Shown here one piece after another: positions 2,578 through 24,207 of a DNA stretch of 64,000 bases. Source of the DNA: Nitrosospira briensis (GTDB lineage Bacteria > Pseudomonadota > Gammaproteobacteria > Burkholderiales > Nitrosomonadaceae). Position numbers and translations under genes: made by a program. Each line of letters opens with the position of its first letter. Within the stretch, counting starts at the first letter, position 1. The notes under the pieces are model-generated. The model was not told where the DNA came from, made no database searches, and saw only the letters and a program-made list of their open reading frames with translations. The stretch is from assembly GCF_900115125.1 (NCBI RefSeq), contig NZ_FOVJ01000003.1, positions 1 to 64,000 of the forward strand, in the 5' to 3' direction.

Positions 2578-4465
2578 TCTGACCACGGACTATTTCCTTT
2601 TTCCAGCCGGTCCTGGATATTTGAAGCAGTCCAGCGAGCTGCACTTGTCAGGCCGGGCAGCTCTTCCCATGCCAGCGGCACAGACACACCCAAGCCAGGG
2701 CGAGCCCGGGCTGACCAGGCGCATATGGTCGTGGCGCCCAAGCCATTTCTCAGGTAGTCGATAAAGATTTTTCCCCTCCGGTTGCTCGGCCCGCTCTTCG
2801 CCACAAAACGTTGCGGTATCGTCTTGGCCAGGTGCACGACGATAGCCTGGGAGAAGTCCTTTACCGTATCCCAGTCACGCAGCCTTTTGAGTGGAACGAC
2901 GACATGCAAACCCTTTCCTCCGCTGGTCTTGAGGAAGGACTTCAACCCCAGTTCATTGAGGAAGATGCGCACGAGTTGCGCTGCTTCCTGCATATGCTCC
3001 CAGTGAAGCCCTTCCCCAGGGTCGAGGTCAAAGGTCATTCTGTCTGGTTTGCCTATAGCGTTCTTGGTGGCGTTCCAGGTGTGGAATTCGATCACGTTCA
3101 TTTGCGCCGCTGACAGGATTCCCTCTACCGTCGAGATTTCCAGATACGCGGGTGGTCAGGGTGCAGCGCCGGATCAAGCTGAGTAACACCCGGCATCCTG
3201 GCGTTTTCAAGATGCTTCTGGAAAAACAGTTCTCCCGTGATTCCCTCAGGCGCGCGCACGAGCGATACCGGCCTGCCCGCAAGGTGCTCAAGCATCAGGG
3301 GCGCGACAATGCTGTAGTAGCGCACCAGCTCTATTTTGGTAAAGCCGGTGGATGGATCTATTACCCGATCCGGGTTGCTGACCTTCGGCATGGCTACCGG
3401 CGCAGGCTTCGGGGCGCTCGAATGAACCGGTTTTTCACGTGTAATTGACTCGGCCTTCTTGTCTATTCTCAAGCCCTGAAACGAAGGGTGGCGGATATGG
3501 CCGTCCCGGGTCCATTCGGAAAAAGAGACTTCCGCGACCAGTGTGGGCTTGACCCAATGAGCATTGCGAGGAATGTCAGGTGTCTTGGCAAAGGGATTTT
3601 CGATTGTTTCTATTTTTTCCAGCTTCGCCTTCAGATCGCGAAGGGTTTTATCGCTGTATCCCGTGCCAACGTTCCCCGCATATCGCAGTTTCTTATCCTC
3701 ATAGAAGCCGACCAGAAGCGCGCCGAATCCTGTTCGGGAGCCCTTCGGATCGGTATAGCCGCCAACGACGAATTCCTGCCGCTGGCTGCACTTGAGCTTT
3801 ATCCAGTCGGGCGAGCGGCGCGAGACATACGTCGAGGACTTGCGCTTGCCGATGACGCCTTCCAGTCCCATGCGGCATGCTGACGCGATGATGTCTTTTG
3901 CCGGAACGTCGAACGTTTCGCTGAAGTGCACGGTTTTCGAAGCGCGAGTTTCGAACAGGCCTTTGAGGAATTCACCGCGGGCAGTGAGAGGTACAGTTCT
4001 TAAGTCAAAGCCGGCATAAAACGGGACATCAAAAACGAAATAAATGATGTTCCCGGTGCGCGAACTATCAAATGCGTTCTGCAGGGCCTGAAAATCAGGC
4101 ACGCCTACGTCGTTGGGCACGACGACTTCGCCGTCCAGCCAACCGCTTTGAAAACCCATCGCAGCGATTGCCTTTTCTACATGCGGCAGCTTGTGGGTCC
4201 AGTCATTCCCGTTGCGCGTGAAAAGCTGGATTCTCTTTTCCTCTATTCTGGCCAGTATCCGATAACCGTCGAACTTGATTTCATATGCCCATTCATCAGC
4301 GTCATTGGGAGGCCCATCGACGAGCGTTGCAAGCTCGGGCGTGAGAATTGGCGGGAGATCGGCTTTGAGTGCGTTTTCCGGCAAATCCGGGGAAGGGGAG
4401 GGCCTTTTCTTGCGAGGCGCTGCCACGCTCCTTGCAGGCTTGGCACTTTTGAGCGAACCGGGCAC
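2517..4465 (-). pseudogene. ligD: ATP-dependent DNA ligase D (ligase + polymerase domains), frameshifted
   Basis: LigD is the ligase/polymerase of bacterial non-homologous end joining. The first frame (4465 to 3125) carries the ligase domain with motif I EIKFDGYR (adenylated Lys64), the OB-fold region, and the start of the primase-like polymerase domain. It ends early at HPRIWKSRR-stop. The second frame (to 2517) continues the polymerase domain in phase (LEISTVEGILSAAQMNVIEF, then FDLDPGEG with the catalytic Asp pair, and KTSGGKGLHV). Restoring one T at about 3145-3148 rejoins the frames, so a one-base deletion splits the gene inside the polymerase domain. There is no phosphoesterase domain: the frame is closed upstream at 4484, and the only start is GTG 4465 with a poor ribosome-binding site. 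No Ku gene is in the window. A sequencing error is the alternative. Confidence 0.88.
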
Positions 4466-4781: not shown

Positions 4782-4969
4782 GGTTTCGATCCTCTCCTTT
4801 TTGTCATTCTATTAAGACCTTATTAATTACGCCGTTACTCTACCTTAATACCTTAAGTTGTCTTCAGTCCAAGATCAACAAGGCAGTAAAAAAAATAATT
4901 TCATAGGAAAGCACATCAGACGGGGACAATCATGAAAGAGGTTATTCCCGCACTAATCGGGATGCTGAT

Positions 4970-5460
4970 ATGCAAGCCTTGAGATTCATTGCAATAGCAA
5001 TCTATGGCTTATGCTTTTCGCTCGCCCATGCGGAAACATTGACCGGCCAGGTCGTGAGAATTGCCGATGGCGACACATTGACCATTCTGGATGCCGCAAG
5101 GCAGCAGCATAAAATACGGCTATCCGGCATTGATGCGCCCGAGAGAAAGCAGGCGTTTGGCACCGTATCACGGCAGTATCTGGCGAGCCTGGCTTTTGGC
5201 AAAGCGGTTACCGTGGAGTGGTACAAGCGCGACCGATATCAGCGAATTATAGGCAGGGTGCTGGTGGATGGCAGGGACGTGAACCTGGATCTGTGAGGGC
5301 AGGGCTTGCCTGGCATTACAAGTACTATGAAAAGGAGCAGCCGCCTGGAGAGCGCCGCCTGTATTCAGAAGCTGAAGAAGCCGCCAGGCTTGATCGAGTT
5401 GGGCTATGGCGCGATCCATCTCCCATCCCACCCTGGGTTTTTCGGCGCAAGCGCAGGTAG
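4970..5460 (+). pseudogene. Secreted thermonuclease-like (SNase) protein, frameshifted
   Basis: This encodes a signal peptide (ending SLAHAE) and a staphylococcal-nuclease-fold domain with the expected motifs RIADGDTLTI, LSGIDAPERKQAFG and VEWYKRDRYQRIIGRVLVDGRDVNLDL. A TGA at 5294 then ends the frame. The rest of the domain continues in the next frame as VRAGLAWHYKYYEKEQPPGE to a stop at 5460, so loss of one G near 5294 explains the break. A 16-residue upstream frame (4932-4982) overlaps the start; its leader is conserved in the partial copy at 9506, possibly as a translational leader. Family members degrade nucleic acids with Ca2+. As written the product lacks the C-terminal third and is probably inactive. 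A base-calling error cannot be excluded. Confidence 0.85.
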
Positions 5461-6521: not shown

Positions 6522-7802
6522 CTACTTTTCTGCCACCTTTGCTAGTAGATTTATAGCAGAGTCGTCTCCCTGAGCAGCAGCCTTTCGAATCCACTGAATA
6601 GCCTGGGTAAGATTTCGTGGGACGCCATCACCCTTCGCGTACATCGTCCCCAACATAAATTGTGCGCTGGCATGACCCTGTACAGCGGCTTTGCGATACC
6701 AGTGGGCCGCCTGCGCAGAGTTTTGGGTAACCCCTATACCGTTGTGATACCTGTCTCCGAGAATATACTCGGCTTGCATGGCGCCTTGTTCCGCCGCCTT
6801 GCGAAACCAATGGAACGCTTGAGCGAAATCCTGTGGCAGACTTCCGCCCATGCTATAGATTGCGCCCAAAGTAACTTGAGCATCGGCATCGCCCTGATTC
6901 GCGGCCTTACGATACCACTTGACGGCCTGAGGATTGTCCTTCGGGACACCCTCGCCCTTCGCATACATTAGTCCCAATCTGTATTGAGCTTGAGGAAGGC
7001 CTTGCTCAGCCGCCTTTCGATACCACCGGGCTGCTTGAGCAAGATCTCTGGAAACGCCGTATCCGTTAAAATACCCATCAGCAAGGTTGTATTGCGCGTT
7101 AGCATATCCCTGGTCAGCCGCCTTTTGAAACCAAGGAATTGCATGAACGCGATTTTGCGGCACACCTAGTCCGTTATAGTACGCAAATCCCAGATTACTT
7201 TGTGCAGCCGCAAATCCTTGTTCGGCGGCTTTGCGATACCACTGAATCGCTTGAGCAGGATCTTTCGGTAAACCTGATCCGTTGCTGTAGCTATTACCAA
7301 GGTTGAATTGCGCTTTTGCATACCCTTGGTCAGCTGCTTTCCGAAACCACCGGGCTGCCAGAGCAAGATCTTTTGGGATACCTAAGCCATCGTAGTACGC
7401 TGTTCCCAAGTTAAACTGCGCCGGGGCATATCCTTGCTCGGCAGCCTTGCGATACCAACTGATTGCTAAAGCTGGGTCTTTCGCGATACCAGAGCCTGTG
7501 TAATAACTGTCCGCGAGGTTATATTGAGCCAAGGCATAATTCTGCTCAGCTGCCTTGCGAAACCATTGGACTGCCAGAGCGTGATCTTCGGCTACTCCCG
7601 TGCCTCTGCTATACGACACGCCCAAGGCGTTTTGAGCCTTCGCATCTCCTTGTTCGGCAAGAACCCGAAGCCTCGCTGTTGGTTCAGACTCGTTTCCTGC
7701 ACCAGCGGTTGCCCTACCATCAGCTGAAGCAGAAGCTTGAACTGTGCACGGGACTGATGTCAGGAGGGCAAGGACGGCAAGGACAGGTAAATGGATGTTC
7801 AT
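6522..7802 (-). CDS. Secreted Sel1-repeat (TPR-like) protein
   Basis: A 426-residue protein with a signal peptide (ending PCTVQASA) followed by about ten 36-residue Sel1-like repeats from about residue 45 to the end. Each follows the pattern A-Q-NLG--Y--G-G--KD-A-A--WYRKAAEQG-A. Sel1 repeats are alpha-alpha superhelices that act as protein-binding scaffolds, often in the periplasm and in envelope stress or host interaction. The repeats also give strong internal DNA repetition, a hot-spot for copy-number change. It is followed downstream on the same strand by IS debris, and preceded by two other small exported-protein genes on the same strand. The partner is unknown. Confidence 0.92.
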   Translation of the reverse strand: MNIHLPVLAVLALLTSVPCTVQASASADGRATAGAGNESEPTARLRVLAEQGDAKAQNALGVSYSRGTGVAEDHALAVQWFRKAAEQNYALAQYNLADSYYTGSGIAKDPALAISWYRKAAEQGYAPAQFNLGTAYYDGLGIPKDLALAARWFRKAADQGYAKAQFNLGNSYSNGSGLPKDPAQAIQWYRKAAEQGFAAAQSNLGFAYYNGLGVPQNRVHAIPWFQKAADQGYANAQYNLADGYFNGYGVSRDLAQAARWYRKAAEQGLPQAQYRLGLMYAKGEGVPKDNPQAVKWYRKAANQGDADAQVTLGAIYSMGGSLPQDFAQAFHWFRKAAEQGAMQAEYILGDRYHNGIGVTQNSAQAAHWYRKAAVQGHASAQFMLGTMYAKGDGVPRNLTQAIQWIRKAAAQGDDSAINLLAKVAEK

Positions 7803-9350: not shown

Positions 9351-9505
9351 CAGTCCTCCTTTTTTCTTATCCTAGATTCTATTTTTCGCTTTTATAGCTG
9401 AGCGGACAATTGTACCTAGGTACACCTGCCGTTCAGTAAGGGGATTAAGCAGGAGTTAGGGCATCTGATATGCCAACCCAAACACCCTTTACATGCGTTA
9501 AAACG

Positions 9506-9691
9506 AAAAATAATTAGAGGAAAGCACATCAAACGGGGACAATCATGAAAGAGGTATTCCCGTGCTAATCGGGATGCTGATATGCAAGCCTTGAGATTCA
9601 TCGCCATAGCAATTTATGGCTTATGCTTTTCGCTCGCCCATGCGGAAACATTAACCGGCCAGGTCGTGAAGATTGCCGATGGCGACACATT
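9506..9691 (+). repeat. Partial duplicate of the thermonuclease gene 5' region
   Basis: This segment matches 4892-5079 almost base for base. It covers the upstream leader (GAAAGCACATCA…CGGGGACAATCATGAAAGAGGT), the start codon region, the signal peptide and the first beta-strands (GCCGATGGCGACACAT), then identity stops abruptly at 9691. One base is missing in the leader frame relative to the first copy. It is a truncated paralogous copy; the retained upstream leader suggests a DNA-level duplication rather than independent acquisition. Confidence 0.85.
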
Positions 9692-12835: not shown

Positions 12836-12980
12836 CAGAATATTAATTAAATATAGAGGAAAAGGGAGGGTTTTACGACTTTGACTTGTTGATGTGAGGT
12901 GAACGGGAAAATGGATTTAGGATTACTTGAAGGGAGTCGAACATTATGCAAAGAATGGGCGTCGTTCAACGGATGTTTTT

Positions 12981-13008
12981 ACAGTTGATAACATATTTTA
13001 TCGAGGGT
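12981..13008 (+). other. dif-like site 1 (direct-repeat copy A)
   Basis: Left arm ACAGTTGATAA (12981-12991), centre CATATT (12992-12997), right arm TTATCGAGGGT (12998-13008). This is the 11-6-11 layout of Xer/dif sites, with the inner ATAA and TTAT that E. coli dif also has. The left arm, centre and flanking T-run (12977-12999, 23 bases) recur exactly at 18642-18664. Not tested as a recombination site. Confidence 0.5.
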
Positions 13009-13053
13009 AAATCACCAAAGAATTTGCCCGCTCCCCAGCCCCCGCAAGTGGGG

Positions 13054-13187
13054 GAAACATTTGCAGGTAAGGTCGTCGGCATAGCCGAGGGTGATACCTG
13101 ACAGTTCTTACCCATCAAAGCAGCAGCACAAGATTCGTTTGGCTGACATTCGATGCGCCGGAGAAGAGCCAGCTATTTAAACCGTAA
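13054..13187 (+). pseudogene. Thermonuclease (SNase) gene fragment
   Basis: Reading across two frames gives ETFAGKVVGIAEGDT then a stop, and then VLTHQSSSTRFVWLTFDAPEKSQLF. These line up with the start of the SNase domain at 5030-5160 (ETLTGQVVRIADGDT… and IDAPERKQAFG). At least one indel and a stop break it, and about two-thirds of the domain is missing. It is the third and most diverged nuclease copy in this zone, starting about 45 bases after dif-like site 1. Confidence 0.6.
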
Positions 13188-13315
13188 GGACAGCGCCGGA
13201 GCGTGTAAAGGGATAGGCGCTGCTGCCTGATGGGCTATACTTCTGGCGGGTGCGCACACGTCGTGTGTAGCAGGTACAGCGTTGGTCGGGCCGCCACGCG
13301 GCTACCGTTCGCCCA

Positions 13316-13929
13316 ATGAATACTCCATTCTTCGCATCGTCCCGTGCTTTATCCCACACCTTCAAGCGATTTTTTGCTTCCAAAAAAGCGGGCGGGATTG
13401 TCCTTATCGTCTGCACCTTGCTTTCGCTACTATTGGCGAACTCACCTGTAGGCGAAACCTACCTTTCGTTCTGGCACCACGAAATAGTCGGCATGAGTGT
13501 TGAGCATTGGATCAATGATGGCCTGATGGCGATTTTCTTTTTGATGATCGGCTTGGAATTTGAACGCGAACTGTACAACGGAGAACTGTCCGACTTTCGC
13601 AGTGCCCTGCTGCCGATTGTTGCGGCTGTGGCGGCATCTGCATCCCCGCACTGCTGCACTTTAGCCTCAACGCCGGCACGCCCACGCCAGGTGGCATGGG
13701 GATTCCAATGGCCACCGATATTGCGTTCGCGATTTTCATCACCAATCTGGCGTTTCCGGGGCAGGCCGATACTATTACAGCCTCGAAAATCGCAATCCTT
13801 CTGGCGTCTCTTACAGCCGGCATATTCGGCTTCCTGTGGCTGAAATCTTTTGGGCAACCGCTGTCCACGGACACCGATCCAGACACCATGGACCACCCAA
13901 CGGAAGACAAGACAGGGACCATGCCTTGA
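13316..13929 (+). pseudogene. nhaA: Na+/H+ antiporter NhaA, internally deleted and frameshifted
   Basis: The N-terminus (FKRFFASKKAGGIVLIVCTLLSLLLANSP…HWINDGLMAIFFLMIGLEFERELYNGELSDFRSALLPIVAAV) is normal NhaA. Loss of one G near 13634-13640 then shifts the frame. The third segment (GIPMATDIAFA) is joined directly to the final helix and C-terminus (IFITNLAFPGQADTITASKIAILLASLTAGIFGFLWLK). In intact NhaA about 200 residues lie between these, including the ion-binding Asp pair of helix V, so this product cannot transport. The junction lies near 13730. The original protein exchanges Na+ for H+ across the inner membrane. Confidence 0.88.
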
Positions 13930-13945
13930 ACAGAAGGAGATACCA

Positions 13946-14119
13946 GTGATTAGAGCAGTGTGGCTTTTGCCAGTTATATTTGTGTTGGCCTGCGAGCGGG
14001 ACGTGCCGCAGGTTGACGATCCAAACAAAATCGTCGTCAAGGGCGAAGAGATGAGCCAAACTGATTCTTCTCATTTTTTGCAACAGAGCCCTGAAATAGC
14101 TTTAGAAGTTAACCCATAG
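13946..14119 (+). CDS. Small lipoprotein
   Basis: A GTG start at 13946 is preceded by an excellent ribosome-binding site (AGAAGGAGA). The 57-residue product starts with a lipoprotein signal (RAVWLLPVIFVLAC) with the lipobox VLAC, leaving a 40-residue acidic mature peptide (ERDVPQVDDPNKIVVKGEEM…). It begins 17 bases after the nhaA remnant. Short lipoproteins like this are often entry-exclusion or envelope-accessory proteins, but nothing specific is indicated. Confidence 0.62.
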   Translation: MIRAVWLLPVIFVLACERDVPQVDDPNKIVVKGEEMSQTDSSHFLQQSPEIALEVNP

Positions 14120-14393
14120 GCAATAAGGATGGGACACTCTCCTCCTTCCCGTAACTCTTCTGTAGATAGAATCCAATGCGTACTCCGGTCGGGCTCATGA
14201 TTCCGGAAAGGAATTTATTTTGGACTGATCGAACCTCTTGCCTTGACAATTCATATTCATGATCTAACTTGAGATGAAGGAGATTTCCTGACAGGCAGCT
14301 TTTACGGGAATGGCTTCATATAAAAACTCTATTGATTCATTGATTCCCCATTGTAAAAACCTTATACATCTCGCGATGATCGGAGGAGATCCC

Positions 14394-14960
14394 ATGAGTC
14401 AATCACCATTCGAGTCTGCGTCCCCTCAAACCAAGCGGAGGGTGAAAGCGATGGAGGATGCCATCCGCGCCTGTAATGATGCGCTCGCCGACCTCGATTC
14501 GGCGGCAACTGCGGCGGGTCTATCAGCACGATTAATGTTGCCCGAGCTGGCGTCCACCTTCGACGGACCTTCGGGTTTAGTTGTGCACATCCCCGTGCAC
14601 ATCACTAAACGGGAGGGCGGCAGAGTTTCGCTATTCAAGCTTGCACCCGGCGAGACCGCCACGGTGGGAGTTTACGTCATCGGCGGCCGCGCCTACGATA
14701 GGAAGGTGATGCGTGTAAGCGGCACGGGCCCGCTCGCCAAGGGCGACCGCCTCGCCGAGCAAATCGTGGATGCCGAAGCCGCCGTCGTGCAGTCGCTCGT
14801 GTACGAGGTGAAGAGCATCAATATCGAGGACGGCTCGGCCATCTTTTCAAACGTCCAAGATGACGAAATCGGCGACTTCGTGATCAACCAGGCAGGCATG
14901 TGCTGGTTCTGCAACGCAGGCAGCGGATGGTGGTGTGGTTTACCTTGCCTGAATTTTTGA
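14394..14960 (+). CDS. Unrecognised protein with Cys/Trp-rich C-terminal tail
   Basis: A 188-residue protein. Start 14394 follows a GGAGGA ribosome-binding site; the frame is open from 14310. It has a helical N-terminus (SPQTKRRVKAMEDAIRACNDALADL), a central beta-rich region (GLVVHIPVHITKREGGRVSLFKLAPGETATVGVYVIGG) and then a short tail CWFCNAGSGWWCGLPC followed by LNF. Four Cys and three Trp in 19 residues after an otherwise ordinary soluble domain recall leader-plus-core precursors of ribosomal peptides, or a metal site. It is the first of a same-strand run to 18142 (Cys-rich protein, glycine-zipper protein, small protein, metalloprotease). No homologue recognised. Confidence 0.78.
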   Translation: MSQSPFESASPQTKRRVKAMEDAIRACNDALADLDSAATAAGLSARLMLPELASTFDGPSGLVVHIPVHITKREGGRVSLFKLAPGETATVGVYVIGGRAYDRKVMRVSGTGPLAKGDRLAEQIVDAEAAVVQSLVYEVKSINIEDGSAIFSNVQDDEIGDFVINQAGMCWFCNAGSGWWCGLPCLNF

Positions 14961-15081
14961 CAGCGAGCAGTTGCGTGGGTGCTTGTGCGTAAACTAGATG
15001 AGGTGCAAATGCTCTAGCCAGGGATAATGCTACCGCTGGCGACGAGTACTCTGAAGACATCACACGGAGATCAAGATCAAG

Positions 15082-15570
15082 ATGCGGAATTACAGGAACT
15101 CTGGGCAGGGTACTTTTACTTCGACCGTCAAAACTACCGCTGATCACGGAGATATTCAGCAAGAAGTAGACGTTACACAGGGCTTACGCAAGAGAATACT
15201 TTGCCCCAGTGCATCGGCAGAGGTGAAGTCGGTTCTTTTAGGTGTCGTTCAACCTAACGGTTCTGTCGGTTTTATCAAGGATAGAATTGAGGTAACACGC
15301 GAATTCTTGGATATTGCTACCAGAGGTGGCGGGCTACCTGAAACCCGGTTCCGCTTTAGCTCGCCGTGCCTTGGAAGCGCGTGCAAGCAGTGGGCTAATG
15401 GCGGGTGCAGCTTGCCCGAGCGGCTTGCGGACTTGATTTCTAGGTCAGATGCAACTGATGCGCCACTACCCGAATGTTCGATCCGAGATCAATGTCGCTG
15501 GTTTGATCAACGAGGGTCGGACGCATGCCGTATCTGCCCTAAGGTCATTACGCGCGACAACTCGCAGTAG
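15082..15570 (+). CDS. Cys-rich putative metal-binding protein
   Basis: A 162-residue protein with seven Cys packed in the second half: CLGSACKQWANGGCSLPERLADLI and CSIRDQCRWFDQRGSDACRICPKVIT. The spacing C-x4-C-x7-C … C-x5-C-x9-C-x2-C suggests a zinc or iron-sulfur site. I recall a similar CRWF-…-C--CP-V-T ending in other uncharacterised bacterial proteins but cannot name a family. It lies 121 bases after the Cys/Trp-tail gene and 50 bases before the glycine-zipper gene, so it could be a maturation or carrier partner. No signal peptide. Confidence 0.75.
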   Translation: MRNYRNSGQGTFTSTVKTTADHGDIQQEVDVTQGLRKRILCPSASAEVKSVLLGVVQPNGSVGFIKDRIEVTREFLDIATRGGGLPETRFRFSSPCLGSACKQWANGGCSLPERLADLISRSDATDAPLPECSIRDQCRWFDQRGSDACRICPKVITRDNSQ

Positions 15571-15620
15571 TACGATAGATAGAAGAATTCTTTCTTAATA
15601 TTAGCACGGAGGATATAAAC

Positions 15621-16526
15621 ATGGCTGATGAAAGCAAGTCAGGTAGTCGTTTCATGGTGGATTTGGGGGACATCAAGCTGTCACGCCTTGTAGAGAAGCA
15701 AGTGGAAGCGGATATCAAGGCAGTGGTTTTGCGCGCCCTGGCGGAGAGCGACTTCATCGGTAACCGACGTGGCCAGCGAGACCCCGACTCGATCCCCATC
15801 TGGGAGAAGTTTCCGGGAGGGACGCTCGGTTTATGGATTGGGGACCAGCTGCCGATTGGTTTCCCTGGAGGTTTCCCTGGGGACACTGGTCCCTTGACTG
15901 TCAGGGATCACACTCTCATCGTGAATACTGTCATGGAGCACCCGATGCAGGTGCTGCGGAATTTGCCGGAAAAGCATAAGACGAGGGGTGGCCGTCCTTC
16001 AGGCAGGGAGGTGCTCCAGGCGGCATTGCAAGTCGAGCAGATCGACGATTTCGTAAAGGGCCGGATGCGAGCGGTGCTCGATCTCTTACCGAAGATTGAA
16101 GAAGGCCAGGCAAATCTGCCCGAGTCCGTAAAGCGAGCTGCGGAGGATTTGCGGCAGCAATTGACCAACAAATCCGTTGACGAGCAGCGCAGAGTGCTTC
16201 GCGACCCGGACCTCAGGAGCAGGCACCGTGACGATGGGTTTGCCGAGGGTATGGAGGTTGCAGCCCGGATCCTGGATGATGGACGAGACTCCATCTATTC
16301 ACCTGACCATAGCTTCTACAAGCTGCTGCAGCAAGGGGCACCACGGGCGGCCGCTAGGGATTCGTTGGAAGATACGGCGAATGCAGACACGGTTGGCGCA
16401 GCCGTAGGAGGAGGTGTTGGACTTGTCGTTGGCGGAGTCGGCGCGGGGCCTGGCGCCGTTGCAGGCGGGGCTGGAGCATCACTTGGATTTGTACTTGGTA
16501 CCGCCATTGGCTGGCTTTTCGATTAG
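15621..16526 (+). CDS. Protein with C-terminal glycine-zipper membrane segment
   Basis: A 301-residue protein with a GGAGGA ribosome-binding site before ATG 15621. The first ~250 residues are soluble and mostly helical, with a proline/glycine-rich insert (FPGGTLGLWIGDQLPIGFPG). The last ~45 residues form a long glycine zipper (VGAAVGGGVGLVVGGVG… and ASLGFVLGTAIGWLF), a pattern seen in class II bacteriocins, pore-formers and oligomeric membrane proteins. No signal peptide, so insertion would need another route. It sits between the Cys-rich protein and a small protein gene on the same strand. A membrane-active role is inference. Confidence 0.78.
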   Translation: MADESKSGSRFMVDLGDIKLSRLVEKQVEADIKAVVLRALAESDFIGNRRGQRDPDSIPIWEKFPGGTLGLWIGDQLPIGFPGGFPGDTGPLTVRDHTLIVNTVMEHPMQVLRNLPEKHKTRGGRPSGREVLQAALQVEQIDDFVKGRMRAVLDLLPKIEEGQANLPESVKRAAEDLRQQLTNKSVDEQRRVLRDPDLRSRHRDDGFAEGMEVAARILDDGRDSIYSPDHSFYKLLQQGAPRAAARDSLEDTANADTVGAAVGGGVGLVVGGVGAGPGAVAGGAGASLGFVLGTAIGWLFD

Positions 16527-16610
16527 GTGGGCATGGGAAGCGTTGCCCTCCAGTAGCTCATCAATGTGAAAGCGGCTGTTAGGCTAGCGTACTGAAGGAA
16601 CCCAAGCACG

Positions 16611-16958
16611 ATGGAAAGAGAGATGAGCTCAGCACAACCTTGTTTCTTGAGACGTTGGGTTCACTCTTGTGAGGAAGATATTGAGCATGCGCGGACCTAT
16701 CGCCCGTCAGACTGGCAGCTTCCGCGGTCAAGGCCACCCAGACACGTGCTGGAGTTTGAACCCGACCGGTTCGTCAGTCGCGTCGGTGGTCCTGCCGATT
16801 CATTCGTCACACGGGAAGGCCGCTGGAGCGTCGATCCAGGAGAACCCGATCTGCTTCAGCTTGAGTGGCAAGATGCAACACAACCTGCTTTCATTGAGAT
16901 CGTCAGTTGCTCGGATGAGTTGCTGCAGGTTAGGGTAATAAGTGGATCCATCGAATAG
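16611..16958 (+). CDS. Small uncharacterised beta-rich protein
   Basis: A 115-residue soluble protein. The core (FLRRWVHSCEEDIEHARTYRPSDWQLPRSRPPRHVLEFEPDRFVSRVGGPADSFVTREGRWSVDPGEP…VVSC) has the alternating pattern of a small lipocalin-like barrel: an opening W-HS-EED, a central F-PDR and a GRWSVD strand. I recall similar short proteins in many bacteria without a known function. It lies 84 bases after the glycine-zipper gene and 95 bases before the metalloprotease. ATG 16623 is an alternative start. Confidence 0.7.
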   Translation: MEREMSSAQPCFLRRWVHSCEEDIEHARTYRPSDWQLPRSRPPRHVLEFEPDRFVSRVGGPADSFVTREGRWSVDPGEPDLLQLEWQDATQPAFIEIVSCSDELLQVRVISGSIE

Positions 16959-17053
16959 GAAGTAATGTCGCAGTTGGGGTACGTTTCACTCTTTCCGGCT
17001 GAAGGTAGGCCAAACGTTATCAGGAAAAGAAGAAGTGGGGGGTTAAGCGGCTT

Positions 17054-18142
17054 ATGCGTGCGTGTGCAACGATGGCAGTTCATAGACGTTTACTGGATAC
17101 CGACCCTAACTACCGGGCACGGCGGGAACGGATCGAGAATCTTATCTTTGCGCGCAAGCTTGCACGTGATAGGGGCCGGACGGGAACGACCACAATCCCA
17201 GTCGTTGTTCACGTAGTCTACAACAGCCTCGTAGAAAATATTTCGGCAGAGCAGGTGAAAAGCCAGATCGATGTACTTAACGAGGACTTCGCCAAGCGCA
17301 ATCCCGACTTGAAGTCAGTCCCGCCCGTCTGGAGTGATAGTATTGGCGACGCACGGATCCTGTTCAAGCTCGCCGACCGTGATCCCGATGGAGCGATTAC
17401 GAGCGGCATTACGCGCACCTCCACCTCCATTGTCGCGTTCGGCGATGACGACACGGTAAAATTGGCGGTTAGTGGTGGCACTGATGCCTGGCCGCCAGAT
17501 CGTTACCTGAACATATGGGTCTGTCATCTGGGCGACCTCCTCGGCTATGCCCAATTCCCGGGAGGTCCTGTACATACCGATGGTGTGGTGATCGACTACC
17601 GGGCTTTCGGGACCACTGGCACCGCTGAGGCACCTTTCAACCTGGGTCGCACTGCGACGCACGAGGTAGGACATTGGCTGAACCTGTTTCATATTTGGGG
17701 CGATGACGGGATGGGCTGTGCCGGCACTGATCAGGTCGACGACACGCCAAACCAAGCTGGCCCTAACACAGGATTCCCAAGTTTTCCACATACCACCTGC
17801 AATAATGGGCCCGAGGGAGATATGTTCGTCAACTTTATGGACTATGTTGACGATCGCTGCATGGTAATGTTCACCGCTGGCCAAGTGCAGCGCATGCATA
17901 CAGCACTCGATGTGACGAGGCCATCCTACTTGGAAGAGGGCAAGCCATTGCCGGTTCCTGCCACCGGTTGGATCCATACAGATCTCACTGTGGCGGCTGG
18001 AGCGCCCGAGGCAGCAGGTGACCCAGTAGTCGCCTCGTGGTCAGAAGGAAAGCTCTGCGTGCTCTATCTCGGTGTGGACCATCATATCCATGCGCTGAGC
18101 TTTGACGATGACAGCACCTTTGGAGCGCCAGCAAGACGTTAA
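17054..18142 (+). CDS. M43-family (pappalysin-like) zinc metalloprotease, C-terminus probably truncated
   Basis: A 362-residue protein. Residues ~1-45 are a charged helical start ([25 protein letters not shown]), typical of this group. The catalytic domain spans about 46-290, with the extended zinc motif [16 protein letters not shown] and the Met-turn region [15 protein letters not shown]. The tail ([47 protein letters not shown]) looks like a single blade of a fucose-lectin-type beta-propeller, which normally has about six. The gene stops at 18142 in a convergent overlap with the CX3C gene, so later blades were probably lost. No signal peptide. It is last in the same-strand run. Confidence 0.85.
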
Positions 18143-18438
18143 AATCTTGTGAGATTCGGGACGCACCCCGCCAAACAGTTCTGCATGCATCGTTCACGAA
18201 ATAGACCAGAGCCCCCAACAACTGAGGCGCAAACGTGCCAACATGCTTGTTCGCAGTTCTGACCAGGTAGTCCAATGGGTCCGAATGGCCCAGTCGGTCT
18301 TCGCCCCATGATCAATGAAAATTGTATCTGCGGGCATACTATGTTGCCTACTCGCATAGCCTCAAGAGCACCAGCCGAATGATAACCGCTACCCGTTTGG
18401 TATAGAGATGCTTCGGCGGTAAATTCGGGTATTTTCAT
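18139..18438 (-). CDS. Cys-rich mini-protein with paired CX3CX3C motifs
   Basis: A 99-residue protein with a strong ribosome-binding site (TTAGGAGAT) before ATG 18438. The N-terminus [23 protein letters not shown] resembles the opening of many short uncharacterised bacterial proteins that I recall as [10 protein letters not shown]. The C-terminal 40 residues hold two mirror-like motifs, C62-x3-C66-x3-C70 and C84-x3-C88-x3-C92, joined by a Gly-rich turn. This is the spacing of a disulfide-stapled helical hairpin (alpha-hairpinin-like); C35 is extra. It overlaps the metalloprotease stop tail-to-tail by 4 bases. A secreted or modified peptide is plausible; no classical signal peptide is seen. 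Confidence 0.7.
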
Positions 18439-18645
18439 TTTTACATCTCCTAATCATGTTTGCCGCCATTAGTAGACCAACGAAAAGGTTTTTGGAGCTA
18501 TATTGTTTCTTCACTGCTGTCTCCTCAAAAGTTGATAGGTTTCCGCGGCCTGAGCTCCCCGGGGAACTATTTCCGCAGAAGAAGTGCACTACAACATCCA
18601 ACCTTCCTTCTGCCGTGGCCGTAGGATTGGAAACAAAGTCCTTTT

Positions 18646-18673
18646 ACAGTTGATAACATATTTTTATGGGGTG
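18646..18673 (+). other. dif-like site 2 (direct-repeat copy B)
   Basis: Left arm ACAGTTGATAA (18646-18656) and centre CATATT (18657-18662) are identical to site 1; the right arm TTTATGGGGTG differs and has one extra T before TTATG. The exact match with site 1 spans 18642-18664 (23 bases), in the same orientation, 5.7 kb apart. It lies 97 bases upstream of the recombinase start. Confidence 0.5.
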
Positions 18674-18702
18674 CTGAATTAGGACAAATTGAGGCATCCT
18701 CT

Positions 18703-18730
18703 ATTCTTGATAAAATACGTTATCAATAAT
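18703..18730 (+). other. dif-like site 3, near-perfect palindrome before the recombinase
   Basis: Left arm ATTCTTGATAA (18703-18713), centre AATACG, right arm TTATCAATAAT (18720-18730). The arms are complementary at 10 of 11 positions, as for a tyrosine-recombinase core site. It ends 12 bases before the recombinase ATG and overlaps the likely promoter, so a repressor operator is the alternative reading. Confidence 0.5.
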
Positions 18731-18735
18731 AAGAT
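18707..18735 (+). promoter_or_regulatory. Putative promoter of the tyrosine recombinase
   Basis: TTGATA (18707-18712), a 17-base spacer and TAAGAT (18730-18735). The start point would be at about 18742, leaving almost no leader before ATG 18743. The -35 and spacer overlap dif-like site 3, so recombinase binding there could repress its own transcription. Confidence 0.45.
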
Positions 18736-18742
18736 AGGGCGA

Positions 18743-19708
18743 ATGAGCACATCCGTTCTTCCTGTATCAGTACCTCCCTCCAGTCGGCTTCTAAGCTCGG
18801 CCGACTTCCAGCGCTTGGCAGATGTTCCACTGGTAGTCGAATGGTTCGCGAATATTGACAGTGCGCAAACCCGGCGTGCCTATCGGAATGCGCTCGAGGA
18901 TTTTATGAAGTTCACCGGTATCGAGCGGCCGGATGAGTTTCGGGAAATCAGCCGCGCCCATATCATTGCTTGGCGGGATGACTTGAAGTACCGGGAATTG
19001 AGCGGCACGACTATCCGGCATCGCCTGGCTGCGCTGTCCTCACTGTTCGAATATTTATGCGATAAAAATGCCGTGACGCATAACCCGGTCAAAGGCATCA
19101 AGCGGCCTTCGGTAGAAGGTTATCAAGGTAAGACTCCTGCAATTGGGGATCATCAGGCGCGCAGTCTGCTTGATTCCCCGAATAATGCATTGCGCAAAGG
19201 CAAGCGAGACCGCGCCATTTTGGCGACCCTGCTGTATCACGCCTTGAGGCGTGAAGAGCTTTGCATGCTTCTGGTGAAGGATTTCAAGCACGAGCGACGC
19301 GGGGTCGCCCACCTGAAGGTTTCAGGTAAAGGAGGAAAGACGCGTTATATTCCTCTTCATCCCGCAGCGGGCGGCCTCATCCTAGATTATCTCGAAGAGT
19401 CAGGGCATGGGGCTGATCTAAGTGGACCGCTCTTCCGGCCCATCCGCAACAACCGCACCGGTGCACTGGGTAAGGCCATTACCGCAGATATGGTTTATAA
19501 ACTGGTACGTGCGTATTCTTCAGCTCTAGGATTCAAGATCGGTGCTCACGCATTACGAGCGACTGCAGCAACCAATGCATTGGATCATCAGGCGGATATT
19601 GCCAAAGTGCAGGAATGGTTGGGGCATGCCAATATTGCCACGACTCGGATCTATGATCATCGGAAAACCAGGCCAGAGGATAGCCCGACATTTAAAGTGA
19701 GTTATTAG
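18743..19708 (+). CDS. XerC/D-like tyrosine recombinase (integrase)
   Basis: A 321-residue site-specific recombinase. It has a SAM-like core-binding domain (WFANIDSAQTRRAYRNALEDFMKFTG… RHRLAALSSLFEYLCDKNAVTHNPVKGIKRP) and a catalytic domain with Arg in YHALRREEL, Lys near GKGGKTRYIPL, HALRATAAT (His and second Arg) and GHANIATTRIYDH (His and the nucleophilic Tyr). Size and layout are Xer-like rather than phage-like: it lacks a long arm-binding domain. Start 18743 is preferred over the open frame from 18689, which would run through dif-like site 3. Two such sites lie in the 100 bases upstream. It is probably an accessory-element recombinase rather than the chromosome-resolution XerC or XerD; the latter cannot be excluded. 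Confidence 0.92.
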   Translation: MSTSVLPVSVPPSSRLLSSADFQRLADVPLVVEWFANIDSAQTRRAYRNALEDFMKFTGIERPDEFREISRAHIIAWRDDLKYRELSGTTIRHRLAALSSLFEYLCDKNAVTHNPVKGIKRPSVEGYQGKTPAIGDHQARSLLDSPNNALRKGKRDRAILATLLYHALRREELCMLLVKDFKHERRGVAHLKVSGKGGKTRYIPLHPAAGGLILDYLEESGHGADLSGPLFRPIRNNRTGALGKAITADMVYKLVRAYSSALGFKIGAHALRATAATNALDHQADIAKVQEWLGHANIATTRIYDHRKTRPEDSPTFKVSY

Positions 19709-20128
19709 GGGACGTTTGACGAAAGGGAATTTATCATCCAGAAGGTATGACAGTAGGGCCAAGTTTTGCACCTTGGTAATAACGCTGAGACTACTGGTGT
19801 TAATTGTCACACTTCATCGAATGCTTCAACCACCCATACGGGTCTACAACTATTCAATTAACAACGGTAGGACCAACTGGTTCCACGAACATCAACGACG
19901 TGCTCGGACTCGCCCGCCGCGTAAGAGACCATATCGGTAGCCCAAAAGCCGGTATTGGCAATCAGTGGTTAGTCGACAAGCCCTTTATCAGTACATTTAT
20001 TAGCACACCATAAATGTCAGGGGATTGCGATAATCTTCTATTATTATTAATAATTCATGAGCTATGAAGATCACGTGGACAGTCTTATTTCTACAGTCTT
20101 ATTTCTGCGAAGTATAGGGAGAAACAAC
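19709..20128. other. Non-coding or decayed stretch after the recombinase
   Basis: No supported gene. A 69-codon frame ending at 20013 (…TTIQLTTVGPTGSTNINDVLGLARRVRDHIG…) starts only with TTG and has no ribosome-binding site; it may be a gene remnant. A GATAA followed after 7 bases by TTATTATTA at 20026-20045 weakly resembles the dif-like sites but has the wrong spacing. A good ribosome-binding site (GGGAGA) occurs just before 20129. Confidence 0.4.
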
Positions 20129-20662
20129 GTGCATTACACATTTCGTCGCTTTTTGGGTCTGGCCCTAATAACGGTATTCGCAGTATCACCAAGTTTCGCG
20201 GGTAGCGACAAAGAAATAACGGTTTTTGATGAAGTATGTCTTCAGGATATCGTCCGCAAATGTGCAGAGGATATACAGGTTGGAACTCCTGCCTCTCGGA
20301 GATTTTTAGTAAAGGATAAAGAGCCCCCCTTAAATATGACACGTCCTGATCCTAACCAATCAGGAGCTGCAGTGTGGATTGTTCAATGGAACAGCGCATT
20401 ATGTCCCGGTGGTTATAATAAACCGTCGCCTAATGATGAATGTCTCCCAACAGTGGAAACGAAACAAACGGCATATCAGTACTGTTACTATAAGGTGCGC
20501 GCGGAGATTCCATCTGCTTGCGTACGCGTGCTAAGGCCAGAAGTTATTGCCGAATCAAGCAGTAAAGACATGCGGCTGCTCTTGAACCAATTTTGTAAAA
20601 CCTACGCGGAGATAAAAGAGAAATGTGATGAGGTGCTACCTCCAGCTGTCGAAAAAAAATAA
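20129..20662 (+). CDS. Exported Cys-rich hypothetical protein
   Basis: A 177-residue protein. The GTG start at 20129 is favoured by GGGAGA upstream and yields a signal peptide (…RRFLGLALITVFAVSPSFAG). The mature part has eight Cys (for example VCLQDIVRKCAEDI, SALCPGG, NDECLPT, YCYYKV, ACVRVL, FCKTYAEIKEKC), suggesting a disulfide-bonded periplasmic or secreted protein. It ends 22 bases before the large helical protein gene on the same strand, so the two probably form an operon and may act together. No family recognised. Confidence 0.74.
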   Translation: MHYTFRRFLGLALITVFAVSPSFAGSDKEITVFDEVCLQDIVRKCAEDIQVGTPASRRFLVKDKEPPLNMTRPDPNQSGAAVWIVQWNSALCPGGYNKPSPNDECLPTVETKQTAYQYCYYKVRAEIPSACVRVLRPEVIAESSSKDMRLLLNQFCKTYAEIKEKCDEVLPPAVEKK

Positions 20663-20684
20663 ACTGAATCAGCTTTAATACGTC

Positions 20685-23600
20685 ATGCGTTTACGCCTTG
20701 CCATAATACTTGCTTTCGTATGCGTGCCGAGTTTTGGCCAGGCACATGCTCAGTCACCATCGGCAGCGACAGACACTCAGCTCGAGCTAAAAGCACGCGG
20801 TGCAAAAAACAGTTCGCCCATAACACAGTCTATTGTCGGAGCTGAGTACGGGGATCCTAAGATTAGGGAAAATGAACGGACAGCACAAAGGGTCGCAAAA
20901 CAAGTCGAAAAATTGAGGGCACAGAATGCGACTCCGCCGCCGAATGATTCATTTAATACTCGCGTCACAGCTATCAGCGATATGGTGTCGCACGTGGACG
21001 CAACCCAAGAAACTTACAATAAAAAGCGATATGCGTTGGAAGGTATCAAAGAAGGACATGAAACAGTAACTGCTTTAACCCCATTGTTTGGCGGAGCGAA
21101 AACAAAGCTCGCCCTAAAACTCGGGGCGCACGCGGGATCCATGAGCTTTAAAGAAATAACCGAAAGTTATGCCAAACAGATTAAAACGGATTACGAATCA
21201 GGTCTGGAAAACGCGATTGTGCTGGCCGTTCTTCAAACGGATGAAGCTGTGGCCGCGAAGTGGGCGCAACGCGGAGTTACAGATAGCACAAAGCAAGCCG
21301 CGTTACGGGATTTGTTCGGCCCGCAAAATGAGTTCTTTGATGACGAACTTGTGAAAGAGCTGGGGCCTGGTGTCAAGGCGGATTTAGCTAACGCAAAAGC
21401 AGACATGGTTCAAAAAGCATTGGCTCGGTATAAAGCCCATACAGATGCTGAAATGAGTTCGCTACGACAAGCAGTTAAGGCTAAGCATTCGAAATTTATG
21501 GGGACGGCCAAAGAGATTACTGAATTTAAGGAGCAGATTTCTGCAAACACAAAAGCAATTGTAGAGCTCAAGAGCTATACAGAAAAACAATTTGTCTTGC
21601 TTAATAGCAAGATAGGAATTATTAGTGGTCAAGTTGATGCAATGCAATCCGCCATGTGGCGGCAGATGAGCCCCGCAGACCAGGTGCGCGCCTTGGACGA
21701 TGGGTTTTTTCCGAAGATGGACTCGAAAGAACGTGATAAGTTGCGTAGCGATCTTGTTTCTACCGCCAATGTAATGAATTATCGTGACAATGCACTTAAA
21801 ACCCTCGCCGCTGCAGGGCAACTTGCTAATCTTGCCGCAACGGCAGGTCTTCCTGTCGATGTCTACAACTTCAATCGAAATATAGAAACGGCATCAGCCG
21901 CAGTTAACATAATCAGCGGCATAGCCTTGGGCGGTTGGAGTGGTTGGCTTACTGTTCTTCAAAGTACCGGCGGTCTCTTCCCCGGAGGTCAAAATGCAGA
22001 AGCGGAACAACACAAGGAGATAATAGGAGCCTTGAAGGAGATCACAAGGCTTCAGTACATCACGATACAGAAACTCGATGACCTCCGCTTTCAGCTGAAC
22101 GAGAGTACCGCCAAGATCATGAGCGAATTGAAAACTCTAGAGGATAAGGCAGATGTTGCTAATCAGTTGATCCTTGCTCAGACGCTCGAGAGGTACGAGG
22201 GCTGTGGCACTTTTGTTCGTAAGGCGGAAGAGAAGTTCGGCATGAAAAACGGCATTTTTCCAAGCTATGCAGATCGAACAAAACATTTTGACAGCGATAT
22301 CAACCGCATCAAATTATTCGATAATTGCCGCGAATTTCTATCTGGCCGTGTAAATAAACTGGTCGCAAGCGCCACCGGTGATTGGGGGGAAAACGCTAAC
22401 AACCCACTCACGATAGTTCATCCCCTTTTATTAGCTGGAACTGCGGGCGCGCTGCAAGACCAGTCAGAGCCGACTTCAGCTCAGTCACGGCTTTCACGAA
22501 TGAGAGAGCTTACGCTTCTCACATTGGGAATATATACGATTAGCAAAACAAAAGATGAGGAGTCCAAAGAAACGTACCAAGTTACCAAAGAAAAACAGAA
22601 TTGCTACTCACGATTGCTGTCTGGTTTAGCAATCGCGCCGGAACATTTTGCAAACCTACAGCACTCTGCATTTGTCTGTTTAGGTGAAGACATAGATCGG
22701 CCTCATATTTCTGATGAGAGATGTGAGGGAGCATTATGCACTCGCGCTGGTGATCCTGTTTCCCCCAACCACGCCCTTGGACGAGCCTTGGCCCCTGCTA
22801 TGGTGAGGCAACTGGGTGAGTATATGCTATTTTTTTCTCCCTACATGGAGATCATTAAACAGAGTAAGGAGCCGAACCGCATATATAAGATGCTGAACGA
22901 AAGCGAGTTACTTAATGGTGTTTCCGATCGGGGGCTCGATGGAGGGGAGGTCCGGGACTGGCCGGAGTTCTATCTTGATGTGCTAAATCTTGCATTAGCT
23001 CAAGAGAGCCTACATTCCGGTCTGCTTATTACTAAAAGGTCAGCGGATATACTTGGCGAAGCGAATTACGGAACGACAGTAGAACTTCCGCCGCTGGATT
23101 TGATATCTAAAAAAGATGCCAACGGAAAAATCGTATCATGCACTCCTTCTGCTGAGATATGGAAGAAGTTTCCCTACGCCTTAACGGTGTGCTTCCTTCA
23201 AGACAGTATTCCGTTCCGATTGAACATTAGCTACTATCTAGTCGGGAGCAAACTGAATGAAACCAATACTACCATCCCAGCATATGCATTTGCTTTGGCA
23301 TCGGACGAGGAGGTACATCTTAAATCGATTCTTCCGGGTTTGCCATTAGTTCAGGGCATCAAAGACAACAAGCCATGGTGGCACCTCAAGCTAGTCTATC
23401 CTGATAAAAACGGCAAGAGCGATTTTTTAATAATACCATTACCTTCCGCGGCTGAGATACAAACAAATCAAGTTGCATATCGTCCAGCCGCTTACCTACT
23501 TCGAGCGCTAAGAGACTCATTTGTTGAGAGAATCGCGCTTCTTAACTCCGCGGAAGAGAGTAAAGAGCATAAAGTAAGGCTGCGCCAGATCACACATGCG

Positions 23601-23714
23601 GCTCTGGATGATCCGAGCTTTGCGCGTGTTAACTTTACAGTAGAAAAACCATCAACGTTGACGTCAGCTTCTTCAAAACCTTCTTCTCAGAAAAAGCAAC
23701 CAGGCAAAAAGTAA
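20685..23714 (+). CDS. Large exported helical protein with central hydrophobic hairpin
   Basis: A 1009-residue protein with a signal peptide (…FVCVPSFGQAHAQ). Residues ~30-390 are long amphipathic helices with coiled-coil character (ENERTAQRVAKQVEKLRAQN; EFKEQISANTKAIVELKSYTEKQFVLLNSKIG). At ~400-435 lies a glycine-rich hydrophobic segment (AAVNIISGIALGGWSGWLTV), followed by another long coiled coil (EIIGALKEITRLQYITIQKLDDLRFQLNES) and a ~500-residue C-terminal region with several Cys. Coil, hydrophobic hairpin, coil is the layout of alpha-pore-forming toxins, but similarity is by architecture only. The C-terminus is Lys/Ser-rich. It is paired with the Cys-rich gene upstream. Unrecognised. 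Confidence 0.82.
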   Translation: MRLRLAIILAFVCVPSFGQAHAQSPSAATDTQLELKARGAKNSSPITQSIVGAEYGDPKIRENERTAQRVAKQVEKLRAQNATPPPNDSFNTRVTAISDMVSHVDATQETYNKKRYALEGIKEGHETVTALTPLFGGAKTKLALKLGAHAGSMSFKEITESYAKQIKTDYESGLENAIVLAVLQTDEAVAAKWAQRGVTDSTKQAALRDLFGPQNEFFDDELVKELGPGVKADLANAKADMVQKALARYKAHTDAEMSSLRQAVKAKHSKFMGTAKEITEFKEQISANTKAIVELKSYTEKQFVLLNSKIGIISGQVDAMQSAMWRQMSPADQVRALDDGFFPKMDSKERDKLRSDLVSTANVMNYRDNALKTLAAAGQLANLAATAGLPVDVYNFNRNIETASAAVNIISGIALGGWSGWLTVLQSTGGLFPGGQNAEAEQHKEIIGALKEITRLQYITIQKLDDLRFQLNESTAKIMSELKTLEDKADVANQLILAQTLERYEGCGTFVRKAEEKFGMKNGIFPSYADRTKHFDSDINRIKLFDNCREFLSGRVNKLVASATGDWGENANNPLTIVHPLLLAGTAGALQDQSEPTSAQSRLSRMRELTLLTLGIYTISKTKDEESKETYQVTKEKQNCYSRLLSGLAIAPEHFANLQHSAFVCLGEDIDRPHISDERCEGALCTRAGDPVSPNHALGRALAPAMVRQLGEYMLFFSPYMEIIKQSKEPNRIYKMLNESELLNGVSDRGLDGGEVRDWPEFYLDVLNLALAQESLHSGLLITKRSADILGEANYGTTVELPPLDLISKKDANGKIVSCTPSAEIWKKFPYALTVCFLQDSIPFRLNISYYLVGSKLNETNTTIPAYAFALASDEEVHLKSILPGLPLVQGIKDNKPWWHLKLVYPDKNGKSDFLIIPLPSAAEIQTNQVAYRPAAYLLRALRDSFVERIALLNSAEESKEHKVRLRQITHAALDDPSFARVNFTVEKPSTLTSASSKPSSQKKQPGKK

Positions 23715-23921
23715 TAATAATCATAGCTGGTTAACACTTCGGTATAAAGCTATCGAACTCTCTGCTTTCCTGCATCTCAGAGCAACAGCAACTCGGCAAG
23801 TTTTGACCAGGCAGGACGGTCAGTTGTGTGGCTGGCAAATACCTACACCGTGATGGGATTGTTTGGCTAATTAAATTTAAGCTGATACAGGGCCATAGGC
23901 GTTCTCAACAAGACGAGATCT

Positions 23922-23949
23922 CTGAATGATAACGTCCTTTATCATTCAT
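23922..23949 (+). other. dif-like site 4 within a 490-base intergenic region
   Basis: Left arm CTGAATGATAA (23922-23932), centre CGTCCT, right arm TTATCATTCAT (23939-23949); GAATGATAA and TTATCATTC are perfectly complementary over 9 bases. It shares TGATAA-N6-TTATCA with site 3. A stem-loop with a 6-base loop acting as an RNA terminator is possible, but no T-run follows. Nothing else is recognised in 23715-24207 apart from AT-rich sequence before the next gene. Confidence 0.42.
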
Positions 23950-24207
23950 AACCTTGTAGCAAAAGGGACCCCTTGCGCGACACTGTGCATACCAGCGCCA
24001 TGATTCATTAATCACAGCTTAGCTAACGCTAAAGATAGGTTATCAAGTAAAAAGGGGGAAGAAAAAAGGTAAAAATGTTTTTATAACTGACCTATATTTA
24101 ACTGGAAACCGGAGCTGGCTACGTATATTTGCAATCCCTGAATTGCGGCGAGTAATCGATGCTGCTTTTATCAACAATCAAGACTCAAGACAAATAGGAG
24201 GTGAAAA

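Follow-up and report, generated by a model that had tools for sequence, protein, structure and literature searches.

Palindromic Xer-type sites and candidate accessory modules around a tyrosine recombinase gene in Nitrosospira briensis

Four sites around a Xer-like recombinase gene

We analyzed a stretch of 64,000 nucleotides from Nitrosospira briensis, an ammonia-oxidizing bacterium of soil (contig NZ_FOVJ01000003.1, positions 1 to 64,000), referred to here as the window, which is contig C13 of a 3.23-Mb Nitrosospira-group genome. Four sites, denoted S1 to S4, were found in it, with the gene of a Xer-like tyrosine recombinase and a pair of cargo open reading frames (ORFs) lying between S3 and S4 (Table 1). 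The recombinase family is labeled RecA and a second family RecB; these are working labels and do not refer to the homologous-recombination protein. Sites were grouped by their core into class A (CNTATT and variants) and class B ([CT]GTCCT). Our analysis indicates that the stretch is probably a mosaic of accessory modules edged by target sites of single-recombinase, Xer-like, plasmid-borne systems.

Table 1 Features of the window; site sequences are given as left arm, core and right arm.
Feature	Position	Strand	Sequence	Arm pairs	Description
S1	12981..13008	+	ACAGTTGATAA CATATT TTATCGAGGGT	8/11	A-type, hybrid arms: ACAGTT left, GAGGGT right
Interval S1-S2	13009..18645				nhaA-I leader RNA, broken nhaA, small ORFs (some cysteine-rich), M43 metalloprotease
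S2	18646..18673	+	ACAGTTGATAA CATATT(T) TTATGGGG..	2/11	A-type half site; S1 left arm and core repeated, right arm lost, only left arm and centre kept
S3	18703..18730	-	ATTCTTGATAA AATACG TTATCAATAAT	10/11	A-type palindromic site; minus-strand core CGTATT; 12 bp ahead of recombinase start codon
RecA	18743..19708	+			Tyrosine recombinase, 321 amino acids, Xer-like; PF00589; residues R-K-HxxR-H-Y
Cargo ORF 1	20057..20662	+			Start signal-peptide-like by eye
Cargo ORF 2	20685..23714	+			1009 amino acids; start signal-peptide-like by eye; Pfam matches sub-threshold only
S4	23922..23949	+	CTGAATGATAA CGTCCT TTATCATTCAT	10/11	B-type palindromic site
Region right of S4	23950..23985	+	..CTTGTAGCAAAAGGGACCCC..		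By eye like right flank of some B sites

An earlier note on this DNA had reported 28-mers at 12981, 18646, 18703 and 23922, and all four were found there. The 23-base identity that it described between 12977-12999 and 18642-18664 is exact, with mismatches directly beyond both ends, and S3 and S4 are indeed near-perfect palindromes. The window holds 37 distinct 23-mers that occur more than once, the S1/S2 repeat among them, so this repeat on its own is nothing unusual there. The exact pattern GATAA-N6-TTATC occurs three times in the window, compared with a mean of 0.065 and a maximum of 1 in 200 Markov-1 sequences, and the core flanked by arms with 10 or more of 11 pairs occurs twice, compared with none across all 200. 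With one mismatch allowed, eight occurrences were found against a shuffled mean of 1.29. Across the whole genome the exact pattern is present at 11 places against two for the control, about three of the 11 looking like chance. The looser ATAA-N6-TTAT is not enriched genome-wide (48 against 64 for the reversed control), which bears out the earlier caution that a short core alone is weak.

Relatives of these sites were found elsewhere. Relatives of S1 with perfect arms are present in the same genome at C10:895528, C11:152709 and C12:20317, a relative of S4 is present at C10:433827, and the right arm of S1 recurs in locus L197. Perfect versions of S3 adjoin recombinases 90% and 89% identical to the window RecA (loci L018 and L019, respectively).

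The window RecA falls within the tyrosine recombinase superfamily, scoring above the cut-off of its Pfam domain and showing, in an alignment to a XerC-like structure, the residues listed in Table 1, which we take to be catalytic. It scored below the cut-offs of the curated XerC and XerD models (144 and 142 bits against 335 and 330) and of the integron integrase model (58.6 bits against 265). Its nearest relatives are encoded in Nitrosospira metagenome-assembled genomes.

Two site classes and their recombinase families

A search of 23 genomes of the genus for TGATAA-N6-TTATCA gave 87 sites, or 85 distinct ones, since two sites fall where contig ends overlap and account for four entries; the reversed pattern gave 0. 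At least one site is present in 22 of the 23 genomes. Among the 75 sites listed, the core was C[ACG]TATT in 42, [CT]GTCCT in 23, one base off in five and different in five.

Relatives of RecA were detected in 34 of 150 related genomes at an E-value of 1e-40, the window's own genome counted, and in 133 plasmid records of PLSDB at 1e-60. No match was found in 50,697 phage records at 1e-30, and a phage origin of RecA was rejected. The 92 matches, in 89 loci, were reduced by two with stop codons and seven duplicates to 83 distinct proteins, a set from which a RecA locus on a Pseudomonas syringae plasmid (L304, 59.5% identity) was excluded. We then looked near each gene for palindromes of the GATAA-N6-TTATC type with at least 7 of 11 arm pairs, the core not being prescribed. 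For 72 of the 83 genes such a palindrome was found in the 1 kb upstream, and for one in the 1 kb downstream. It is within 100 bp of RecA in 34 of the 72 upstream cases and up to 960 bp away in the farthest. The cores of these 72 sites are CNTATT in 56, within two bases of CATATT in 13 and different in three, and 69 have 9-11 of 11 arm pairs. A similar search over 1.22 Mb (the named loci and the window) gave 80 sites, compared with one in one shuffle.

The arms vary together with the recombinases. At positions 2-6 the left and right arms are identical in 47 of the 72 sites (shuffled mean 18.8, maximum 28). On the RecA tree the arm type changes 18 times, compared with 25-31 times in 300 shuffles (64 labeled rows). 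Arms with TTATT at positions 2-6 accompany the window RecA and its 89-90% relatives, CAGTT accompanies a Nitrosovibrio clade, and CCCAT accompanies a clade rich in N. multiformis. A is, on this evidence, the predicted cognate site of the RecA family.

Several further features were observed around A sites and RecA. An outer TTTTA/TAAAA often lengthens the mirror beyond the 11-6-11 unit. Six loci (L236, L245, L248, L254, L256 and L257) carry pairs of A sites with unlike arms at a distance of about 67 bp, and the spacer (..CGCGATCGAAAAATC..GAAAATTCT..) is similar among them. In L083 (12315-12443), and also in L076, L077, L074 and L066, an extra copy of the last 40-70 codons or so of RecA lies kilobases from the full gene, an arrangement that might arise if the 3' end served as a junction; in L278 a 3' part of RecA directly follows a hybrid B site. 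We also found 15 viral contigs with GATAACGTCCTTTATC; one of these, L171, combines a perfect palindrome with a distant recombinase (26%).

RecB adjoins B sites in the genus and is about 30% identical to RecA. For six of the eight RecB copies with more than 60% identity in the genus, a B-type palindrome lies 107-850 bp upstream of the aligned stretch. Relatives of RecB were found in 121 plasmid records at an E-value of 1e-45, and in all seven of the loci fetched from these records one [CT]GTCCT palindrome is located upstream, 14 bp to 1.3 kb from the annotated RecB gene. These findings assign B, as a predicted target site, to a second, plasmid-borne recombinase family, RecB. A right flank resembling that of S4 was seen by eye at L231, L232, L238, L227 and L228 and is absent at most of the listed B sites.

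The arms in the window are of three types, and the comparisons support that each type tracks a different recombinase. S3 (ATTATT type) is the predicted A site of the window RecA, which would cut it. S1 and S2 (ACAGTT type) are assigned to a Nitrosovibrio-type relative of RecA, present in this genome only as a decayed remnant that adjoins its site (C10:895301-895497). S4, by its core, is assigned to the RecB family; a search of the window's genome for RecB gave no match apart from its own RecA at 30%. The earlier note had proposed a dif-module element with its own recombinase. The recombination-type sites and the Xer-like recombinase at S3 agree with that proposal; its assumption of one recombinase for all four sites is not supported, as the three arm types follow different recombinases.

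Module edges in relatives and on plasmids

The earlier note had proposed a search of related genomes for module edges, and this revealed breaks of homology at such sites, though no relative of the S1-S2 unit. Of 14 copies of a small module encoding a DUF768 protein (PF05589), 12, from 12 genomes, have their start precisely at an A site's right arm; the count is drawn from loci fetched for holding a site, so that copies away from sites would be missed. The left arms at these modules are ACCCTT in six, ACAGTT in three, and ATCCTT, GCCCTT and ACAATT once each, the site with ACAATT being one base short; the right ends are mostly ragged. Two DUF768 units are whole and reach from A to B, one of 809 bp (L011) in the genome of the window itself and one of 802 bp (L238) in genome G016. 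The two are 95.7% identical, and their homology ends 4-6 bp beyond the sites, where the outer flanks differ.

Clustering of the flanks of 142 sites gave some groups that are alike on one side of the site only. Strain Nl12 and N. multiformis Nl7, for example, match at 98.6% up to and through an A site and then diverge: A is followed in Nl12 by a parD-like gene, by RecA, by a gene for a PIN-domain protein and by B, and in Nl7 by another sequence, shared by Nl18, which resembles Nl7 on both sides. We do not regard the Nl7/Nl18 locus as an empty site, for a full A site remains there and its right side may be another module. Searches with joined flanks for an empty site gave partial matches only. 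Taken together, the comparisons support that homology of modules between relatives tends to break at such sites. Sites with the 28-bp, 11-6-11 layout thus lie at the boundaries of some modules and have not been found to do so for S1-S2.

B follows A in the same sense, at a distance of 0.8-8.4 kb, in 12 intervals: those of the window, L011, L028, L035, L079, L083, L090, L092, L231, L236, L238 and the plasmid pNRS527-1 (80,750 bp; A at 78583, B at 2267). L245 has an A-to-B interval of 0.15 kb. In L236 a single interval contains both recombinases, RecA at the A end and RecB at the B end, both directed inward; this RecB is interrupted by one stop codon. Hybrid-armed sites were found at S1, L229, L254, L249 and L239, with unlike arms as would be left by a crossover within the core. 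Near 9938 in L307 (Nitrosovibrio Nv4), homology to window positions 2322-3228, which include part of a ligD-like gene (named by eye), ends about 170 bp before a hybrid ACAGTT-CGTCCT-ATTCAT site.

On plasmids, a palindrome adjoins RecA in four of the five loci fetched, two from Nitrosospira and one each from Nitrosomonas and Polaromonas; none was found in the P. syringae locus. Two contigs of Nitrosovibrio Nv6 carry plasmid functions: C7 (64,219 bp) encodes a relaxase (PF03432) and a coupling protein (PF02534), and C4 (21,757 bp) encodes RepA (PF10134) and a ParA-like protein. Both start at base 1 of the 28-bp B site and both end with the same B followed by 67 bp. We denote the sequences before and after B as X and R7 at the end of C7, and as F' and R4 in C4. 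For two circles without an alternative path the cut points would be arbitrary; that both are cut at base 1 of B would be expected of an assembly graph in which C4 and C7 are joined through B, and suggests joining by B x B exchange in this strain.

Within the window, the S3-S4 interval carries the cargo pair that the earlier note had called a secreted pair of 4.5 kb; the ORF pair spans 3.66 kb (20057-23714). Cargo ORF 1 had no match in Pfam, NCBIfam or PADLOC. The pair (20095-23739) is 88.7% identical to L085 of Nitrosovibrio Nv4; it is located downstream of RecA in the window and upstream of A-RecA in Nv4. The 54.6-kb Nv4 contig that has the pair beside A-RecA has 3.1 kb in common, at 93.6%, with the part of Nv6 C7 that carries secretion genes. 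No cargo DNA was found on named plasmids at 1e-8.

Mobility of the 5.6-kb S1-S2 block is unsupported: as a unit it has no relative among the 23 genomes of the genus and S2 has lost its right arm. With a single arm left at S2, excision through S1 x S2 today is unlikely. In PLSDB the interval matched only in patches of the metalloprotease and nhaA. Its leader RNA (RF03057, 13248-13298, 44.8 bits against a cut-off of 37) precedes the broken nhaA, and the ORFs at 14310-14960 and 18139-18438 encode small proteins with cysteine-rich tails (one ..MCWFCNAGSGWWCGLPCLNF), by eye like peptide precursors and without Pfam match. Elsewhere in the window, a direct repeat with copies 4.6 kb apart (4888-5079 and 9501-9691; 55 nucleotides at 84% and 137 at 94%) takes in the start of a thermonuclease-like gene (named by eye), and ten repeats with a spacing of 108 nucleotides (6571-7586) lie within a gene for what is, by eye and presumably, a Sel1-like repeat protein.

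Module exchange, its rivals and known systems

Four observations made on the sequences carry the reading of the stretch as a mosaic of modules: the association of site and recombinase, the agreement of arm type with the recombinase tree, the breaks of homology at sites, and the occurrence of one A-to-B unit in two contexts. Each system would consist of one tyrosine recombinase and a nearby 28-bp site with two mirror-image 11-bp arms around a 6-bp core. The co-variation described above suggests that the arms set which recombinase binds; the core would set which sites can exchange. A plasmid would enter by a crossover of its site with a resident site of the same core class, forming a cointegrate, and a second crossover at another pair of sites would resolve it and leave the block between the sites behind. 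We infer this order of reactions from the arrangements found; repeated rounds of entry and decay could then build islands in the chromosome that contain remnants, orphan sites and sites with hybrid arms. The succession S3-RecA-cargo-S4 in the window would be an A-to-B block that has retained its recombinase, in the order seen in A-to-B blocks elsewhere, and S1 and S2 would be sites of another recombinase.

A stronger form of the same reading is a natural cassette exchange, which we regard as tentative and on balance unlikely. Blocks would be framed by mutually exclusive sites, A on the left and B on the right, each with its own recombinase, and one RecA and one RecB crossover would swap a block one-way between plasmid and chromosome. 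Its fullest form may be L236, with both recombinases inside the block, an arrangement that could be likened to engineered heterospecific lox or FRT cassettes.

A number of findings weigh against the mosaic reading. No site lies within 1 kb of 11 of the 83 RecA genes, none was found at the two RecA copies with stop codons that were set apart from these, and none was found in 12.9 kb of the P. syringae plasmid locus, so the link between RecA and its site is not extended to the 101 plasmid records from Pseudomonas. For two broken RecB remnants, no B site was found in the 3 kb examined. B follows RecA in the same sense in only 6 of 80 named RecA loci, whose flanks are often short, and a B-like site follows in the opposite sense in three (L082, L084 and L085); together with the P. 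syringae locus, the scarcity of B after RecA lowers our trust in the mosaic and in the cassette exchange. Sites with A arms and a B core or the reverse (L239, L199, L232, L278 and L259) are at odds with a strict limitation of exchange to A x A and B x B. No pair of strains was found in which both outer flanks agree and a module is present in one and absent from the other. The DUF768 loci were chosen for their sites, and their left flanks, which mostly differ, are common to L218 and L249 and to L011 and L220. At the left edge of the cargo pair no site is present, whether in the window's genome or in Nv4; the joining in Nv6 is read from contig ends rather than from reads, and the S1-S2 unit lacks both a relative and an intact second site.

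The most serious rival is that these systems only resolve plasmid multimers, like the plasmid stability systems Cre/lox of P1 and XerCD at cer. RecA with A and RecB with B would then be stability systems, the chromosomal sites would be fossils of accidental integration, and nothing would be selected for moving modules. We give this a substantial, though clearly the smaller, chance. It would account for the single palindrome beside RecA in four of five plasmid loci and beside RecB in seven of seven, for the toxin-antitoxin and partition genes nearby, and for the decay of many chromosomal copies. It explains less well that small DUF768 modules without a recombinase begin at the same sites in 12 genomes and that an A-to-B unit recurs in two contexts, which imply more module movement than passive fossils need.

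We consider improbable a model in which a single integrating element has A as its attL and B as its attR and is acted on jointly by RecA and RecB, like XerC and XerD, with attB as [R1 arm]-core-[R2 arm] and attP as [R2 arm]-core-[R1 arm]. L236, with its two inward-facing recombinases, and the 12 same-sense A-then-B intervals fit this model, as do sites with one A-type and one B-type arm in L239, L259 and L278, which would be its empty sites. However, B follows RecA seldom and in three loci in the opposite sense, the cores of A and B differ, and no hybrid site was found that is orthologous to a filled A...B locus.

That the host XerC and XerD act on these sites, as true pdif modules would require, is very improbable. 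The 11-6-11 layout would suit them, and the genome encodes two further tyrosine recombinases (29-30% identity) that are possibly XerC and XerD, but the arms follow RecA and RecB and are symmetric (GATAA/TTATC), unlike those of the dif-like 28-mer of this genome (CATAA/TTATG). We take the latter (TTTGCGCATAATGTATATTATGTTAAAT, near C10 646917) to resemble E. coli dif; the sites described here differ from it in both arms and core and were rejected as host dif. Least probable of all is a role of S3 and S4 as operators, in which the recombinase would control its own gene through S3: although S3 lies 12 bp from the start codon and palindromes are usual for operators, elsewhere the site is up to 960 bp from the gene, and sites stand at homology breaks, keep an asymmetric 6-bp core and are present where no recombinase gene is left. 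Autoregulation at S3 may occur alongside recombination.

Compared with known systems, the mosaic is supported as closest, by analogy, to the dif (pdif) modules of Acinetobacter. According to the available part of PMC13141974, these have sites with a 6-bp spacer at module edges, as here, toxin-antitoxin genes are common, and exchange of a single module is proposed to proceed through a cointegrate and its resolution at another pair of sites. The same source describes distinct XerC and XerD arms and the use of host XerCD. Here the arms are symmetric and dedicated recombinases adjoin the sites; no alternation of C and D modules with distinct arms was found, 69 of 72 RecA sites being mirror images (9-11 of 11 pairs). 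Membership among the Acinetobacter dif modules therefore fails and the likeness in working stands.

XerS/difSL and XerH/difH, in the available text of PMC5357621, each have one recombinase gene adjoining its own dif-like site and serve the chromosome. The systems described here share the adjoining site; they differ in lying on plasmids and islands, with a dif-like site present elsewhere in the genome. Cre/lox-type systems also combine a single recombinase with an inverted-repeat site close to its gene, as here, but lox-like sites are 13-8-13 (PMC4957104, part available), whereas ours are 11-6-11, without 13-bp arms or an 8-bp spacer, and the best model matches of the proteins are to Xer. Integron-like elements in rulB (PMC4542609, part available), which have three recombinase genes, were set aside. 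For the copG-int-pgm modules of pPDL2 from Sphingobium fuliginis, site-specific plasmid integration has been reported, the attP, which matches a seryl-tRNA, being located at the 3' end of int1 (PMC3516476). The int2 protein of pPDL2 is a RecB relative (66% identity), and a ATATGTGATAA-TGTCCT palindrome, not named in the part of that paper available to us, lies upstream of the second int gene.

Single-recombinase Xer systems with an adjoining site, and a RecB relative on pPDL2, are thus already known; what appears to be new is modules with dedicated recombinases and symmetric arms. Among the matches listed in a search of the open-licence literature by title and abstract start, no palindromic single-recombinase modules were described in Nitrosospira. 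Relatives of the two families are found on many plasmids (133 and 121 records), the site having been examined in only five and seven and found in four and seven. The reading offers a testable account of how islands are built in slow-growing ammonia oxidizers; it also provides a set of small recombinase/site pairs among which natural variants of specificity occur. In relation to the known systems, it would mean that gene shuffling like that of dif modules is carried out by dedicated recombinases as well as by host XerCD.

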